From Lysobacter sp. HDW10 (GTDB taxonomy: Bacteria > Pseudomonadota > Gammaproteobacteria > Xanthomonadales > Xanthomonadaceae): 64,000 bases of DNA. The DNA lies in contig NZ_CP049864.1 of assembly GCF_011300685.1 (NCBI RefSeq), positions 2,100,885 to 2,164,884 of the forward strand, given 5' to 3'. Each line of letters begins with the position of its first letter. Within the stretch, counting starts at the first letter, position 1. The translations under genes and the position numbers were made by a program. Positions 14,930 through 53,982 of this stretch are shown here, piece after piece. The notes below the pieces were generated by a model. The model was not told the origin of the DNA. It made no database searches and saw nothing but the letters and a program-made list of their open reading frames with translations.

Positions 14930-15466
14930 ATGAAACCAGTGCATATTCGGAATTCATGCGTAAAAACCTTGATTTTCCTGGCGCTCTGCACGCCTTTGAC
15001 GGTGCTTGCCGCACCCGGGGAAGACAACAACGCCGAGCCGCCTTCCACCGCACAGGGCTGGAATGTCCGCATGATTCACGGTCAGGACGCGGTCAATGCG
15101 GTTCTGATTCGCGCAATTAGCCTTGTGGGGACGCCTTATCAATGGGGGGGCGCGACGCCGGGCAGCGGTTTTGACTGCAGCGGGCTGGTGAACTTCGTCT
15201 TTAAGGACATGTTGAATGTCCAATTGCCGCGCACATCTCGTGAGCTGGCCGAGGCGCAGGGCCCGCGGATCGACTTCGACGACCTGAAACCCGGCGACCT
15301 GGTGTTCTTCGGGGCGAACGGCGTGGTCAGCCATGTCGGCATCTATATCGGCGAGCGCCGCTTTATTCACGCGCCGCGCACGGGCACGGTTGTGCGCTTG
15401 GAACAGATCGATAAAAGCTATTGGACCGGCCGCTATACCGGTGCCCGCCGCGTCATCGAGACGTGA
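14930..15466 (+). CDS. NlpC/P60 (C40) cell-wall endopeptidase, paralogue 1
   Basis: A 178-residue exported protein with a signal peptide (KTLIFLALCTPLTVLAA). The NlpC/P60 domain begins ISLVGTPYQWGGATPGSGFDCSGLVNFVF with catalytic Cys83, then PGDLVFFGANGVVSHVGIYIG with His135 and FIHAPRTG with His147. Family members hydrolyse D-glutamyl-diaminopimelate bonds in peptidoglycan peptides. GAGG precedes the ATG. The next gene encodes a close paralogue (same GTPY-WGG, LPR-SR and HAPRTG blocks), so the pair probably arose by tandem duplication. A third, longer family member lies at 52765-53982. Confidence 0.9.
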   Translation: MKPVHIRNSCVKTLIFLALCTPLTVLAAPGEDNNAEPPSTAQGWNVRMIHGQDAVNAVLIRAISLVGTPYQWGGATPGSGFDCSGLVNFVFKDMLNVQLPRTSRELAEAQGPRIDFDDLKPGDLVFFGANGVVSHVGIYIGERRFIHAPRTGTVVRLEQIDKSYWTGRYTGARRVIET

Positions 15467-16278: not shown

Positions 16279-16311
16279 CGGGTCGCCCAAAAGGCGGCCC
16301 GCTTTCTATTT
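16279..16311 (+). terminator. Rho-independent terminator after NlpC/P60 paralogue 2
   Basis: CGGGTCGCC-CAAAA-GGCGGCCCG (9-bp stem with one G-U pair) followed by CTTTCTATTT. It abuts the first repeat unit at 16310. Confidence 0.8.
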
Positions 16312-16392
16312 AACGGTACCAGGTTCAGTTAATTCCCTTTAACGGTGACAGGTACAGTTAATTCCGCTTAACGGTGACAGGTTCCGTTAATT
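16310..16392 (+). repeat. REP-like array, left side of the RAYT: three direct 25-bp units, 29-bp period
   Basis: Units start at 16310, 16339 and 16368, exactly 29 bp apart, each beginning TTAACGG and ending GTTAATT. The middle unit reads TTAACGGTGACAGGTACAGT then TAATT. Small differences exist (ACC for GAC in unit 1, TTCCG for TACAG in unit 3). The same unit occurs inverted at 17139-17250 on the other side of the transposase gene, and as a palindromic pair inside the gene at 52765. This is the arrangement expected of REP/BIME sequences mobilised by the RAYT between the arrays. Confidence 0.9.
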
Positions 16393-16464
16393 GGGATAAG
16401 TCTGGGTGTGGGGCGCGATTGAATCCGATAGGCGCGGCGGTCGTCAGTTCGCACACTTCGGTGC

Positions 16465-17148
16465 ATGGCGAGACTTCCACGATTAGATATTCCAGGTGTG
16501 CCGCAGCATGTTGTTCAACGCGGGCACAATCGGCTTCCGTGCTTTCTGGACGATATCGATCGTCACCACTACAAGAAGTTGCTTGCGAAGTACGCGACGC
16601 GGATGGACTGCGCAATCCATTCGTATGTGTTGATGAGCAACCATGTGCATCTGTTGGTGACGGCGTCTGAGCCGCACGGCGTTTCACGCATGATGCAGGG
16701 GCTGGGTCGTAATTTCGCGGGGTACTTCAATTTGAAGTACGAGCGCACCGGGGCGCTGTTTGAAGGTCGCTTCAGATCTTGCTTAGTGGACAGTGAAGCC
16801 TACGTGCTGGAGTGCTATCGGTATATCGAGCTCAATCCCGTGCGAGGACGAATCGTCGCGTCGCCTGATGCGTACCGATGGTCGAGCTATGCACACAATG
16901 CATTGGGATATACGGATCCCCTCATTACGCCCCACGATTGCTACCTGAGACTTGGTGAATCCGATGTTTCTCGAAGGCATCGTTTCGAAGCGTTGGTGGC
17001 GCAAGGCTTGCCTGCGCACATCGTCGATGAAATACAAACCTATTTACGCCAGCAACGTGCGCTGGGTGGCGATGCGTTTCGCAGCATGGTCGAGCAGAAG
17101 ACCCAACGCTTCGCGGGTGTGCGTCCGCCGCACCGGCCCCATAAGTGA
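16465..17148 (+). mobile_element. REP-associated tyrosine transposase (RAYT, IS200-like Y1 family)
   Basis: A 227-residue single-domain Y1/HUH nuclease. It starts MARLPRLDIPGVPQHVVQRG, has the metal-binding HUH motif MSNHVHLLV (His60, His62), FNLKYERTGALFEGRFRS, and the candidate catalytic tyrosine in RYIELNPVRGRI (Tyr120). It ends in a basic tail. RAYTs are usually single-copy domesticated relatives of IS200/IS605 transposases that cut and spread REP palindromes as single-stranded DNA. Here inverted arrays of one repeat flank the gene on both sides. The TGA stop lies inside the first right-hand repeat unit. The gene is full length; no frameshift is seen. Confidence 0.9.
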
Positions 17149-17250
17149 ACCTGTCCCCGTTAACTCCAATTAACTGTACCTGTCCCCGTTAACTTCAATT
17201 AACTGTACCTGTCACCGTTAAGTGGGGATAACTGTACCTGTCACCGTTAT
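17139..17250 (-). repeat. REP-like array, right side of the RAYT: four inverted units, 29-bp period
   Basis: Four copies of the 25-bp unit in the opposite orientation to the left array, at 17139, 17168, 17197 and 17226, again 29 bp apart. The form is AATTAACTGTACCTGTCACC then GTTAA; units 1 and 2 have TCCCC instead of TCACC. Unit 1 is degenerate at its left end and contains the transposase stop. Unit 4 supplies the TAA stop of the minus-strand thioesterase gene. Confidence 0.9.
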
Positions 17251-17726
17251 TTGGTTTTGTAGCGTTCGATGGTTTGTTCGATGCCTTTGCTTAGGGCTAG
17301 GACTTTTAGGGCGTATTCGGAGAGTTGGCGGTCTTCTTCGGTTTGGGGTTGCCATTGGGGGGCGGCGGTGGGGGTGCCTTCGGGGTCGACAGAGACGAAG
17401 ACGATGACGCAGTGTGTGCAGAGGCGTTCTTCGCCGCCCATGGGGTCGGCCGCGGTCACGTCGATGGAGAAGTGCATGCTCGTGTTGCCGGTGTAGATCA
17501 ATTTGGCAGTGATGGTGACCAAGTCGCTGGTTTTGATCGGGGCGACGAAGCGGATGCCGCCGACGGCGACAGTGACCGAGTACATGCCGCTCCAACCGAC
17601 GGCCGCGGCGTAGCCGGCTTGGTCGATCCACTTCATCACCACACCCCCGTGCACCTTTCCGCCGTAGTTGACGTCGGTGGGTTGTGCGAGGAATCGCATC
17701 ACTAATTCGCGGCGTGTGCCACTCAT
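17247..17726 (-). CDS. Acyl-CoA thioesterase, hot-dog fold (YciA-like)
   Basis: A 159-residue single hot-dog domain. MRFLAQPTDVNYGGKVHGGVVMKWIDQAGYAAAVGW holds the catalytic acidic residue of the hot-dog helix, followed by RFVAPIKTSDLVTITAKLIYTG and CTHCVIVFVSVDPEGTP. YciA-type enzymes hydrolyse a range of acyl-CoA thioesters in the cytoplasm. The stop codon TAA lies in the outermost repeat of the right REP array. The 3' part of the gene is unusual in base use: its coding strand is C-rich because the plus strand leaving the repeat is G/T-rich (for example 31 G and 10 C in 17341-17400). Confidence 0.88.
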   Translation of the reverse strand: MSGTRRELVMRFLAQPTDVNYGGKVHGGVVMKWIDQAGYAAAVGWSGMYSVTVAVGGIRFVAPIKTSDLVTITAKLIYTGNTSMHFSIDVTAADPMGGEERLCTHCVIVFVSVDPEGTPTAAPQWQPQTEEDRQLSEYALKVLALSKGIEQTIERYKTK

Positions 17727-39937: not shown

Positions 39938-40798
39938 TCAGGGAGTCGTGCTGGGCGATATCGGGGGCACATCGAAATGGTTGCGTACATTTGCCGACAA
40001 ATACGGCGCGAACACGCTAGCCGGCACATCGACCCTTTGCACGCCATCGGCATAGCCGGCAACTTGGTACGGCGGGAAGATAAAAGTGATGCCGATCATC
40101 TTGCCATTACTGTCTAGCATTGGCTCGAAGTCTTGATAGTTTTCGGCGCTGGGCTGAGTGCCTTCTTCTACCAAGGGTTTCAATTGGGCGAGTAAGGCAG
40201 CTTTTTCTGCATCGGAAAGCTGATCTTCTTCGAAGCGCTCGCCTGCCTGCTTTAACAGCGCTTCTTTCACGAATTTGGACAGGGCTTGCCACCCTTCCGG
40301 GGTGGACACCAAATCATTGGCTGTGATGAGCCGTTCGCCGCGAACGTCCCAAACAAATCGGCGAATCAAAGCATTCCCATGTTCGCCACCGGTATACATG
40401 CTGCCGTCAGCCGAGAAGGTGCGTACAGCGGGGCTGTTGCCCGGGAGTTCTCGGAATTCCAAACTCAAGTCATAGGGCGCGCCCGGCGAGCCAGGCTTTA
40501 CATCGCGCGCAGCAATGATGAGCCGATCGCGCGAAGCATCTGCAAAAGCCTTGATTTCAGACTTGAGCGGTGGCGGAATGCTGACATCTTTTGGAAAGGT
40601 GATGCCGATCAGGTATGTGGGCTTTTGTTCGATGATGTCGGTTAGATCGACATCGGCCACCTGCGCTGCACCGGCTTGCGCACTAGGCGTATTCACAGCG
40701 CCCGGAGAAGGTGTTTTGTCACAACCAGCGATCAAGGCTGCCATGACGACACTCACCGCCATCGGCAGGCACCAACGTTTTGCCACCACGCCATACAT
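39938..40798 (-). CDS. DUF3298/DUF4163-type lipoprotein
   Basis: A 286-residue lipoprotein: signal MAVSVVMAALIAG with lipobox Cys in ALIAGC. The domain order is a DUF4163-like N-terminal half (LIGITFPKDVSIPPPLKSEI, YDLSLEFRELPGNSPAVRTFS, YTGGEHGNALIRRFVWDV) and a DUF3298-like C-terminal half (LSDAEKAALLAQLKPLV, ITFIFPPYQVAGYADGVQRV). Such domains occur in RsiV-type anti-sigma factors and peptidoglycan deacetylases and may bind cell-wall components. Its ATG overlaps the stop of the GNAT gene (TAATG), so the two are coupled. Confidence 0.82.
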   Translation of the reverse strand: MYGVVAKRWCLPMAVSVVMAALIAGCDKTPSPGAVNTPSAQAGAAQVADVDLTDIIEQKPTYLIGITFPKDVSIPPPLKSEIKAFADASRDRLIIAARDVKPGSPGAPYDLSLEFRELPGNSPAVRTFSADGSMYTGGEHGNALIRRFVWDVRGERLITANDLVSTPEGWQALSKFVKEALLKQAGERFEEDQLSDAEKAALLAQLKPLVEEGTQPSAENYQDFEPMLDSNGKMIGITFIFPPYQVAGYADGVQRVDVPASVFAPYLSANVRNHFDVPPISPSTTP

Positions 40799-51673: not shown

Positions 51674-52768
51674 ATGACTGTAGAAAGCGAAACGCCGACC
51701 TCGATCTGGGTCGATTCCCCTGAGATTCTCACCGCCCAACTCGCCCATATTCGCGGCGCCATCGGGATCGACACTGAATTTGTACGTGAACGGACGTTCT
51801 GGCCGAAGCTCGCCTTGGTGCAGATTGCGACCGAGGATGCGGTGCTGTTGGTGGACTCCAAAGTGCCAGGCATCAACGAGGCATTAGCGCCGCTGTTGTC
51901 CAATCCAGACATTCTCAAGATCATGCATGCGCCGGGCGAAGATTTCATCGCTTTCATCCATGGGTGTGGTTTGGCGCCGTATCCGGTGTTCGATACGCAG
52001 CTGGCCGCGACCTTGGTCGGCTTGGGGCACGGCATGGGCTACGCGCGATTGATGCAGGCCTTGTTCGAAATCGACATCGACAAAGGTGAGACGCGATCAG
52101 ATTGGATGCGACGTCCGTTGAGTGCATCGCAGTTGAAGTATGCAGTGGAAGACGTGCGCTATTTGCATGAGGCACACCGCGTTCTGTCTGAGCAGCTCGA
52201 CACGCTCGGCCGCAGCGAATGGATGCAGCAGGAAAGTGAGGCCTACTTTGCTTCGCAATCAGTCGATGCACCGGAGCGCTGGGCGCATATGGGTGCGCGT
52301 GCCGGGCAACGCATGGACCGTGCGGGTCAAACACGATTGTTGCGCCTGATGCGTTGGCGTGAAGCACGGGCACGTGCGCGTGATTTGCCGAAAAACTGGG
52401 TGCTGCCGGTTGAAGCGGCCATCGACTTGGCCGAAGCCGATGCGCAAACCGAAGAAGTGGTGAACCAGATCTTGCTGAAGCATCCACGTGCGCCGCGTAA
52501 TTTGGCCGCTGCGATGCTAACCGCGATGCACACCGTGGGCGAAGACGAAGACAACATGCCCTTATTGATCGACGACCGCGATCGCGACAAATCCAGAGTG
52601 CGTGCGTGGCAAAGCAAGGTCACACAAATCGCTAATGAACTTGGCGTCGACGAGGGTGTCATCGCTTCGCGCAAAATCATTCAAGCCTATTTGGATGCGG
52701 GCGAATGGCCGGAGTCGGTCACCGCGTGGCGCAAGTCGCGCTTGGATGCCGGTGCACCGCCTGCATGA
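51674..52768 (+). CDS. rnd: Ribonuclease D
   Basis: A 364-residue 3'-5' exoribonuclease. DEDD exonuclease motifs: IGIDTEFVRERTFWPKLALVQ, IMHAPGEDFIAFIHGCG and the third motif LKYAVEDVRYLHEAHRVL (Tyr/Asp). An HRDC domain follows: LMRWREARARARDLPKNWVL and LKHPRAPRNLAAAML. It trims tRNA and other small RNA 3' ends in the cytoplasm. Its TGA overlaps the ATG of the third NlpC/P60 gene. It shares an 18-bp divergent start region with the SUMF1-type gene. Confidence 0.92.
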   Translation: MTVESETPTSIWVDSPEILTAQLAHIRGAIGIDTEFVRERTFWPKLALVQIATEDAVLLVDSKVPGINEALAPLLSNPDILKIMHAPGEDFIAFIHGCGLAPYPVFDTQLAATLVGLGHGMGYARLMQALFEIDIDKGETRSDWMRRPLSASQLKYAVEDVRYLHEAHRVLSEQLDTLGRSEWMQQESEAYFASQSVDAPERWAHMGARAGQRMDRAGQTRLLRLMRWREARARARDLPKNWVLPVEAAIDLAEADAQTEEVVNQILLKHPRAPRNLAAAMLTAMHTVGEDEDNMPLLIDDRDRDKSRVRAWQSKVTQIANELGVDEGVIASRKIIQAYLDAGEWPESVTAWRKSRLDAGAPPA

Positions 52769-53982
52769 AAACGCGTGCGCTCATTCTCTCTGGCGTCATC
52801 GTGCTTGCCCTGGGCTGCACACACGTACGCCCCAACGCCGAAACCGCCGCAAACGTCCCCGCATCCGTCCCTGCGCCATACACGCTCGCAGACATCAAAG
52901 CCCCCGTCCCCGCACGCAACGGCAGCGCCGACCTGCAAGTCCCCGGCGTCACCGCCCCCATGCTCACCGCCGACTATTGGATAGCGCAACTGGACGACCC
53001 AAACAAAACCCTGCACACACCCGAAGAAATCGCGCGCCTAAACGCAAACACCTACACCCAAGCCGCCAACCTCTACGCCCTCGATGCCCTACCCCCCACC
53101 CTCCCCGGCGCCGTAGTCCAAAACGCCATCACCCAACTAGCCAAAGCCGCAAAACCCACCCTAATAAACGCCCACGGCAAATTAACGGTGACAGGTACAG
53201 TTAATTCGGAATTAACGGTACCTGTCACCGTTAATGTTCGGTGGGGGACGGTGGTTAGTCGGGCGGATTTGCGGGCGGTGCCTTCGGATGTGCGGGCTTA
53301 TAGCAAGGCTGAGGATATTGAGATCAATATTGATCGGCTGCAGGAGTCGGCGGTTTTCCCGGGGTGGGCGGTTGCGATTTTGCATACCAGTGCCGATGGG
53401 CAGTGGTACTTTGTGAACGCTTATAACTATCGGGCTTGGGTTAAGGCGGATGCGATTCGGGTGGTCGATAAGGAAGCGGCGTTAGCACGCAACGCGGCCG
53501 TTCAACCCACACCGCTGCCCTATACGCGCGCCAACATCTTGCGAACGGCGTTTCGCTATTTGGGCGAGGCCTATGGCTGGGGCCACGCGAGAGGTACGCG
53601 TGATTGCAGTGGGTTTGTTTCTGAGGTGTATGCGGCGGTGGGCATTGTGATGCCACGGAATACAGGCGACCAACGCGATATCCCGAACTTTCATGCCACG
53701 CGGTTCACAGCGAAGAGTACGCACGCTGAGCGAATGCAAGCGATCAACGCTGCATTACCCGGCGACCTCATTTTCATTCCGGGTCACGTGATGATGGTGC
53801 TGGGCCGTTGGAATGGCTTGACCTACGTAATTCATGACACGCCGGGTGTGCGCATTGCGAATCATGCATTGCCGCTTTACGGTGTCTCCGTGACACCGCT
53901 AGAGACGCTCGAGCCGCTCTCAGGCAGTGTAGGCACGCGGTATATCGACATGATTCAGGCGATTACGCGACCGTACAAATAA
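52765..53982 (+). CDS. NlpC/P60 lipoprotein with SH3b domain, interrupted in frame by a REP palindrome
   Basis: A 405-residue exported hydrolase of the N_NLPC_P60-SH3-NLPC_P60 architecture. Lipoprotein-type signal to Cys18 (VLALGC); N-terminal stabilising domain with YWIAQLDDPNKTLHTPEEIA; SH3b-like domain about 158-235 (VVSRADLRAVPSDVRAYS, FPGWAVAILHTSADGQWYFV); C-terminal NlpC/P60 with RTAFRYLGEAYGWGHARGTRDCSGF (Cys281), GDLIFIPGHVMMVLG (His341) and VIHDTPG (His357). Residues 140-157 (LTVTGTVNSELTVPVTVN) are encoded by the 53-bp repeat palindrome and form an inter-domain insert. Coding DNA before the palindrome is C/A-rich and after it G-rich, an abrupt switch. ATG 52765 overlaps the rnd stop (ATGA). 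Confidence 0.88.
   Translation: MKTRALILSGVIVLALGCTHVRPNAETAANVPASVPAPYTLADIKAPVPARNGSADLQVPGVTAPMLTADYWIAQLDDPNKTLHTPEEIARLNANTYTQAANLYALDALPPTLPGAVVQNAITQLAKAAKPTLINAHGKLTVTGTVNSELTVPVTVNVRWGTVVSRADLRAVPSDVRAYSKAEDIEINIDRLQESAVFPGWAVAILHTSADGQWYFVNAYNYRAWVKADAIRVVDKEAALARNAAVQPTPLPYTRANILRTAFRYLGEAYGWGHARGTRDCSGFVSEVYAAVGIVMPRNTGDQRDIPNFHATRFTAKSTHAERMQAINAALPGDLIFIPGHVMMVLGRWNGLTYVIHDTPGVRIANHALPLYGVSVTPLETLEPLSGSVGTRYIDMIQAITRPYK
53182..53234. repeat. Palindromic pair of the RAYT-associated REP unit inside a coding sequence
   Basis: A direct 25-bp unit (53182-53206) and an inverted one (53210-53234) with a CGG spacer; arms match at 24 of 25 positions. The sequence is the same unit as in the arrays at 16310-16392 and 17139-17250, about 36 kb away. 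The unit is open in only one of three frames on each strand, and the element sits in exactly that frame, so the host gene reads through it. Confidence 0.93.

Follow-up and report, generated by a model that had tools for sequence, protein, structure and literature searches.

The closest described systems are REP/BIME elements with their RAYT (TnpAREP), and REPtrons, in which short palindromic units, arranged in inverted pairs, lie beside the gene of a Y1 HuH transposase; some units are in frame within genes and are proposed to sit in flexible linkers or loops (PMC3733652). The same paper describes RAYT-flanking TIRs ('TIRYT'), whose copies flank a RAYT in inverted orientation and are also dispersed as monomers and dimers. 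According to PMC8266576, TnpAREP remains joined by a tyrosine link to the 5' end that it cuts, and the 3'-OH freed there 'can serve to prime replication'; such priming is named as a possibility for the spreading of REPs. Here we describe a RAYT-linked repeat of Lysobacter sp. HDW10 and the DNA around its copies. The genome (G000) is a single contig of 2.18 Mb and includes the stretch of 64,000 nt that was analysed (the window).

The RAYT gene of the window (16465-17148, plus strand), the proposed actor, encodes a protein that matches PF01797 (Y1_Tnp; E=1.4e-12) and has the HuH motif as HVH at residues 60-62. NCBIfam NF047646 was the best family, yet its score of 55.7 bits is below the curated cut-off of 80. 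Three repeat units on the plus strand lie to the left of the gene (16310-16390) and four on the minus strand to its right (17141-17250), i.e., inverted copies are found on both sides of the RAYT, with further copies dispersed in the genome, as for RAYT-linked TIRs. The flank to the right of this array (17251-17550, in the 3' part of a thioesterase-like gene) is G/T-rich. The RAYT follows an NlpC/P60-like gene both here (window 15.9-17.15 kb) and in the sister species (G003), and the rayT of E. coli adjoins the NlpC/P60 gene yafL (L287, 46712-48134).

The repeat unit (TTAACGGTGACAGGTACAGTTAA) is a 23-bp imperfect palindrome, of a length within the 20-40 bp of palindromic REPs, and contains neither a GTAG nor a CGTC tag. 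In the window a degenerate form of the unit matched 16 times, at 9 places (0.00 in shuffles), namely at the NlpC pair and at the arrays beside the RAYT. The whole genome has 21 unit matches at up to three mismatches, and the core GGTGACAGGTWC brought out two more, a second unit at 2071989 and a match in ParC. The repeat is dispersed at 10 sites if the RAYT locus is counted as one and the ParC match is kept as an extra. Five of these are in frame within genes (NlpC, a MutT-ThiE fusion, TamB, a TlpA-like lipoprotein and a patatin-like protein); the remaining five are intergenic or at gene ends. Apart from the RAYT locus and the NlpC site, which is +/-, the eight sites comprise three +/- pairs, one +/+ pair, two -/+ pairs and two single units. 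The repeat occupies the gap between the two Pfam domains in the MutT-ThiE fusion, precedes the Pfam domain in the TlpA-like lipoprotein and lies inside the Pfam match in TamB and the patatin-like protein. None of 59 other genomes of the order contained the unit at up to two mismatches. A strict-pattern scan of genome_contigs, from which the records of G000 itself were possibly left out, returned no records, and a relaxed scan returned 42 scattered single matches that form no family.

The NlpC site is an inverted pair in an intact, lipoprotein-like NlpC/P60-SH3 gene (52765-53982, plus strand), composed of unit 1 (53182-53204, plus strand, translated LTVTGTVN) and unit 2 (53212-53234, minus strand, translated LTVPVTVN). 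The pair had been predicted to be a RAYT-associated REP inserted in frame into a domain linker and domesticated there, and the underlying sequence facts are real. The gene is open throughout, the pair is translated as LTVTGTVNSELTVPVTVN (residues 140-157), and the catalytic residues C281, H341 and H357 are all present. SH3_6 covers residues 186-227 and NLPC_P60 residues 267-348 (Pfam), and therefore the repeat precedes the SH3 domain. As stated, both strands of the unit have a TAA in two of their three frames; the single frame in which the pair is read is thus forced by the stops in the others. The strong mRNA hairpin that had been expected was borne out by computation (-42.4 kcal/mol, z -8.9; 0 of 200 shuffles equally stable). 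Intragenic copies were indeed found elsewhere, in frame at four more sites. Nothing in the analysis points to a use of the peptide, as 'domesticated' would imply, and in-frame REPs, with the proposal that they sit in linkers or loops, had already been published (PMC3733652).

The two flanks of the NlpC pair differ strongly in composition. The top strand is C/A-rich on the left (52880-53181; GC skew down to -0.56), where third codon positions beside the repeat are nearly all C or A, and G/T-rich on the right (53235-53500; GC skew up to +0.38); the GC skew changes from -0.56 (53025-53174) to +0.37 (53175-53324). Such flips were measured as the keto-skew step, i.e., (G+T minus A+C) of the right 100 bp minus that of the left 100 bp, with controls at 14,944 positions (20 stretches of 20 kb, 400 kb in all; sd 0.148, maximum 0.56). 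The step was positive at all 10 repeat sites (0.38-0.92), of which six exceeded all 14,944 controls and all were within the top 0.7%. With 200-bp windows seven sites exceeded all controls, the other three being in the top 0.35%, 0.84% and 1.7%. With the RAYT arrays counted apart, the mean step of the 11 arrays was 0.573; when 11 control positions were drawn at random 200,000 times, the highest mean was 0.200. The NlpC step (0.89) was the largest in 464 kb sampled; the sites at 727423 and 2071954 are modest. The direction was the same at +/-, +/+, -/+ and single-unit sites, the orientation of the units being irrelevant. In successive 50-bp bins the outward G+T content was 0.691, 0.615, 0.578, 0.574, 0.543, 0.515, 0.526, 0.532, 0.524 and 0.500, and further out ~0.48-0.50; all 20 outward flanks exceeded 0.5 in the first 50 bp, and the G+C content near the repeats stayed at ~0.58-0.62.

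In this genome, substitutions around the 23-bp repeat form a local, strand-asymmetric footprint with the repeat at its centre. On the outward strand, which has its 5' end at the repeat, C and A have been lost and G and T gained, most of all by C>G. The footprint peaks at the repeat, fades over ~250-400 bp and affects coding and non-coding flanks alike. The outward strand is G/T-enriched on both sides of the centre, the same polarity as that of a leading strand running away from a replication origin. An extended palindrome was considered as the cause and rejected (the identity of the reverse-complemented left flank to the right flank equalled that of shuffles, and there was no marked motif). 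Regarding outward promoters in the repeat, no sigma-70-like sites were found within 52800-53700.

Comparison with relatives indicates that the flip arose in the HDW10 lineage. It is absent from G003, which has the closest orthologue, a syntenic NlpC gene that is repeat-free at this position. Within 50 codons of a repeat, and considering only codons for identical residues, the upstream third-position G/T content was 0.17 compared with 0.56 in G003 (n=237 codons; seven of seven genes shifted), and the downstream content 0.81 compared with 0.63 (n=160 codons, five genes). The downstream shift is clear in TlpA, the patatin-like protein and NlpC, whereas TamB is nearly unchanged (0.66 vs 0.64) and MutT-ThiE is reversed (0.70 vs 0.80, n=20 codons). 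Over nine genes, four-fold sites within 25 codons upstream were C 0.76, A 0.17, G 0.06 and T 0.01, compared with C 0.34, A 0.12, G 0.35 and T 0.19 far from repeats; upstream two-fold purine sites were 0.92 A and downstream four-fold sites 0.65 G. Codons with changed residues shift as well (outward G/T +0.80 per codon near the repeat, falling to -0.16 far from it), and therefore the pressure is not confined to synonymous sites; residue identity was 0.64 near repeats and 0.71-0.77 further out.

Substitutions were polarised in six genes by taking as ancestral the base agreed on by the relatives used (G003 and at least one more), which are distant, so that the polarisation is crude; 'near' denotes the outward strand within 100 nt. 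On that strand C>G was found at 28 of 161 positions near and 24 of 743 far (p=1e-9), and C>T at 18 of 161 near and 46 of 743 far (p=0.04); A>G (6/101 near, 19/486 far) did not differ significantly. G>A was rarer near the repeats, at 1 of 168 positions compared with 67 of 829 far from them (p=7e-5). All substitutions together amounted to 78 of 522 near and 248 of 2,551 far.

The manner in which the repeat arrived differs among genes. The original prediction expected NlpC orthologues to lack some 18 residues; instead, all 12 same-genus orthologues examined (drawn from 16 other same-genus genomes) have 33 residues between two anchors where HDW10 has 27, and therefore the repeat replaced native sequence. 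The repeat peptide stands in place of a conserved stretch, with a net loss of six residues; the gene is intact and the pair does precede the SH3 domain, but the expected clean insertion is not what happened. In TamB there is no change of length, and the repeat match is 22/23 in HDW10, 16/23 in G007 and G008 and 13/23 in G003. Contrary to the original reading, the TamB peptide is nearly native: G007 and G008, neither of which yielded a RAYT, read PLTVTGTVG there. TamB of relatives (L148, L149 and L150, compared with L006 1501-1523) natively encodes LTVTGTV where HDW10 has the 22/23 repeat, and here the repeat was apparently written onto resembling sequence. MutT-ThiE is longer in HDW10 by 9-12 residues, and the alignments of TlpA and the patatin-like protein fit neither insertion nor replacement decisively. 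Since the outcomes in NlpC, TamB and MutT-ThiE differ, the repeat arrives in several ways, some of them looking like conversion onto resembling sequence. The in-frame linker reading belongs to a known kind, and some of its details are wrong.

A further repeat-like site lies in ParC (40620-40642, ~40.6 kb; L081 10621-10643); it consists of synonymous differences and has a flip of its own. The match to the repeat is 18/23 (19/23 by degenerate consensus), compared with 10-12/23 in five relatives. The peptide is identical to that of G003 over 30 residues, and therefore the DNA differs synonymously only and nothing was inserted. The step is 0.46 (0.00-0.16 in the relatives), with third-position G/T contents of 0.25 before the site and 0.85 after it. 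By our own arithmetic a 12-mer of this kind is expected by chance about once per genome, and the site may therefore be a chance match, one that the process recognised. Weaker repeat-like sites do not flip (mean step 0.027 at 62 positions with 15/23 matches and 0.043 at 14 positions with 16/23).

The effect is strong in HDW10, weak in its sister G003 and absent in the others tested. In G003 the same two neighbours enclose an orthologous RAYT (58%), whose repeat is a different one; in L271 1270-2285, compared with window 16310-17250, the syntenic RAYT is kept and the repeat is wholly changed to the unrelated AAAGGGGGTCAGAGTGACTT. A second repeat family (AAAATGGGGTCAGATGAAATTTT-like) directly adjoins the RAYT-linked repeats of G003 (L280, L282, L283, L286). 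The seven repeat sites of G003 have a mean step of 0.186, positive at six of seven with 100 bp and at seven of seven with 200 bp; this mean is matched by 0.05% of random sets of seven, and two sites carry most of it. There was no step at 77 clusters of a related repeat superfamily in 15 other genomes (mean -0.03), at 24 further clusters in five more genomes (mean -0.04) or at 19 E. coli clusters (mean -0.11; 250 kb, with a REP consensus). The process is therefore not general to RAYT repeats. Steps at the RAYT loci of other genomes were mixed. Regarding the 14 clusters of G074, 13 were positive at 100 bp (mean ~0.13), part of which is due to A/T tracts at the element edge; these clusters (L131-L140) form a clean inverted-pair family (AACGGGGTCAGAGT, ~50-100 bp), preceded by A tracts and followed by T tracts.

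The strong footprint is that of one genome, read by comparing sequences. The pattern is well supported; for its cause we infer, at somewhat less than an even chance, recurrent RAYT nicking with outward strand-displacement synthesis, which would leave an origin-like mutational footprint. The RAYT, as a HuH Y1 enzyme, would recurrently cut at the repeat on either strand, and the free 3' end would prime short outward synthesis. Extension of this end would displace exactly the strand that bears the footprint, with its 5' end at the repeat. The displaced strand would be single-stranded for a time and its cytosines could be damaged; deamination, uracil removal and C-inserting bypass would yield C>G and some C>T. 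C>G is the change expected from that sequence of steps. Repetition over evolutionary time would recode the flanks, and copying of the repeat during such events would produce replacement (NlpC) or overwriting of resembling sequence (TamB, ParC); such copying would also account for near-identical units beside saturated flanks. Of the results that speak against a purely additive mutational model, the shortage of G>A near repeats weighs most, as additional mutation would not by itself lead one to expect it; saturation with back-mutation (multiple hits) may explain part of it. The pattern suggests that the repeats are local mutation hot spots. More tentatively, RAYT and repeat might together form a site-directed local mutator, each repeat being a mini-origin of outward synthesis started by the transposase, with C>G-led strand-specific hypermutation over 250-400 bp and with the repeat written over resembling host sequence, also in working genes.

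The main rival is selection on RNA, by which transcripts entering the repeat from either side would be kept C/A-rich and G-poor, e.g., for Rho loading or clean folding of the hairpin. The polarity suits RNA that is C-rich and unstructured where it enters the repeat from either side, and the G>A suppression suits a fixation bias. However, the effect should then lie mainly on approached flanks, whereas outward G+T in the first 100 bp was 0.629 in the eight flanks left by sense transcripts and 0.669 in the 12 approached, gene orientations being assigned by hand from the genes at the sites and the sequence. Termination within five working genes would be of no evident benefit, residues change too, and the partial, intragenic ParC site shows the flip; we regard this explanation as unlikely. 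The palindrome rather than the RAYT could also be responsible, through cruciform cutting (SbcCD-like) or topoisomerase cutting followed by repair. Inverted pairs fold into very stable hairpins, and single units are near-palindromic, so symmetry would be natural; yet two single-unit sites also flip, 57 perfect 10-bp hairpins in the control stretches (overlapping starts counted) had a mean step of 0.078 and a maximum of 0.34, and E. coli REPs have no step. Moreover, classical 5'-end resection exposes the other strand, from which the opposite polarity is expected, and we regard this origin as improbable.

The view that the repeat is an ordinary REP inserted in frame into a linker, and that the flanks are incidental, fits the NlpC copy, in frame in an intact gene, and the filled interdomain gap of MutT-ThiE; clean insertion is contradicted by the replacement in NlpC, and the account, which leaves the flanks unexplained and does not compete for them, appears highly doubtful. 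A preference of the repeat for targets where composition already flips would cover all 10 sites without any mutation, but it is scarcely credible and was rejected, as the orthologous repeat-free positions of G003 have no flip and no place without a repeat in the 464 kb sampled had a step above 0.52, compared with 0.89 at NlpC.

A composition footprint whose strand and range are defined records events on DNA at REP-type sites, and bears on how such repeats spread and on whether RAYT cutting primes DNA synthesis. If it is mutational, the repeats would act as local mutators on the genes around them, and five of the sites here lie within reading frames. Anomalies of codon usage or skew in bacterial genes can mark a repeat and not gene transfer. 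A literature search (titles and beginnings of abstracts) found no paper that links such repeats with strand skew; the flank footprint, statistically strong, is apparently undescribed in the literature searched.

Among known systems, diversity-generating retroelements combine a reverse transcriptase with adenine-specific change, whereas the spectrum here is cytosine-led. Strand-coordinated mutation clusters beside double-strand breaks switch strand at a central point and are cytosine-led, and the footprint resembles them in both respects; unlike them, its strand polarity is opposite to that of 5'-end resection. It is also like the footprint of human replication origins, where local mutagenesis is centred on the start of DNA synthesis (PMC9645720), although the centre here is a 23-bp bacterial repeat at which initiation is inferred. 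As with REPINs, several sites are inverted pairs; unlike REPINs, the repeat also occurs as direct pairs, tail-to-tail pairs and single units, and in very few copies. It shares with REP/BIME elements and REPtrons the short palindromic units, the inverted pairs, the adjacent gene of a Y1 HuH transposase and the in-frame copies, but it has no GTAG or CGTC tag, occupies only 10 sites and carries a footprint in its flanks. TIR/TIRYT is probably the best label for the repeat, which is inverted on both sides of its RAYT and dispersed as monomers and dimers, and which differs from described TIRs in its footprint and in the native coding sequence that it has replaced or overwritten.
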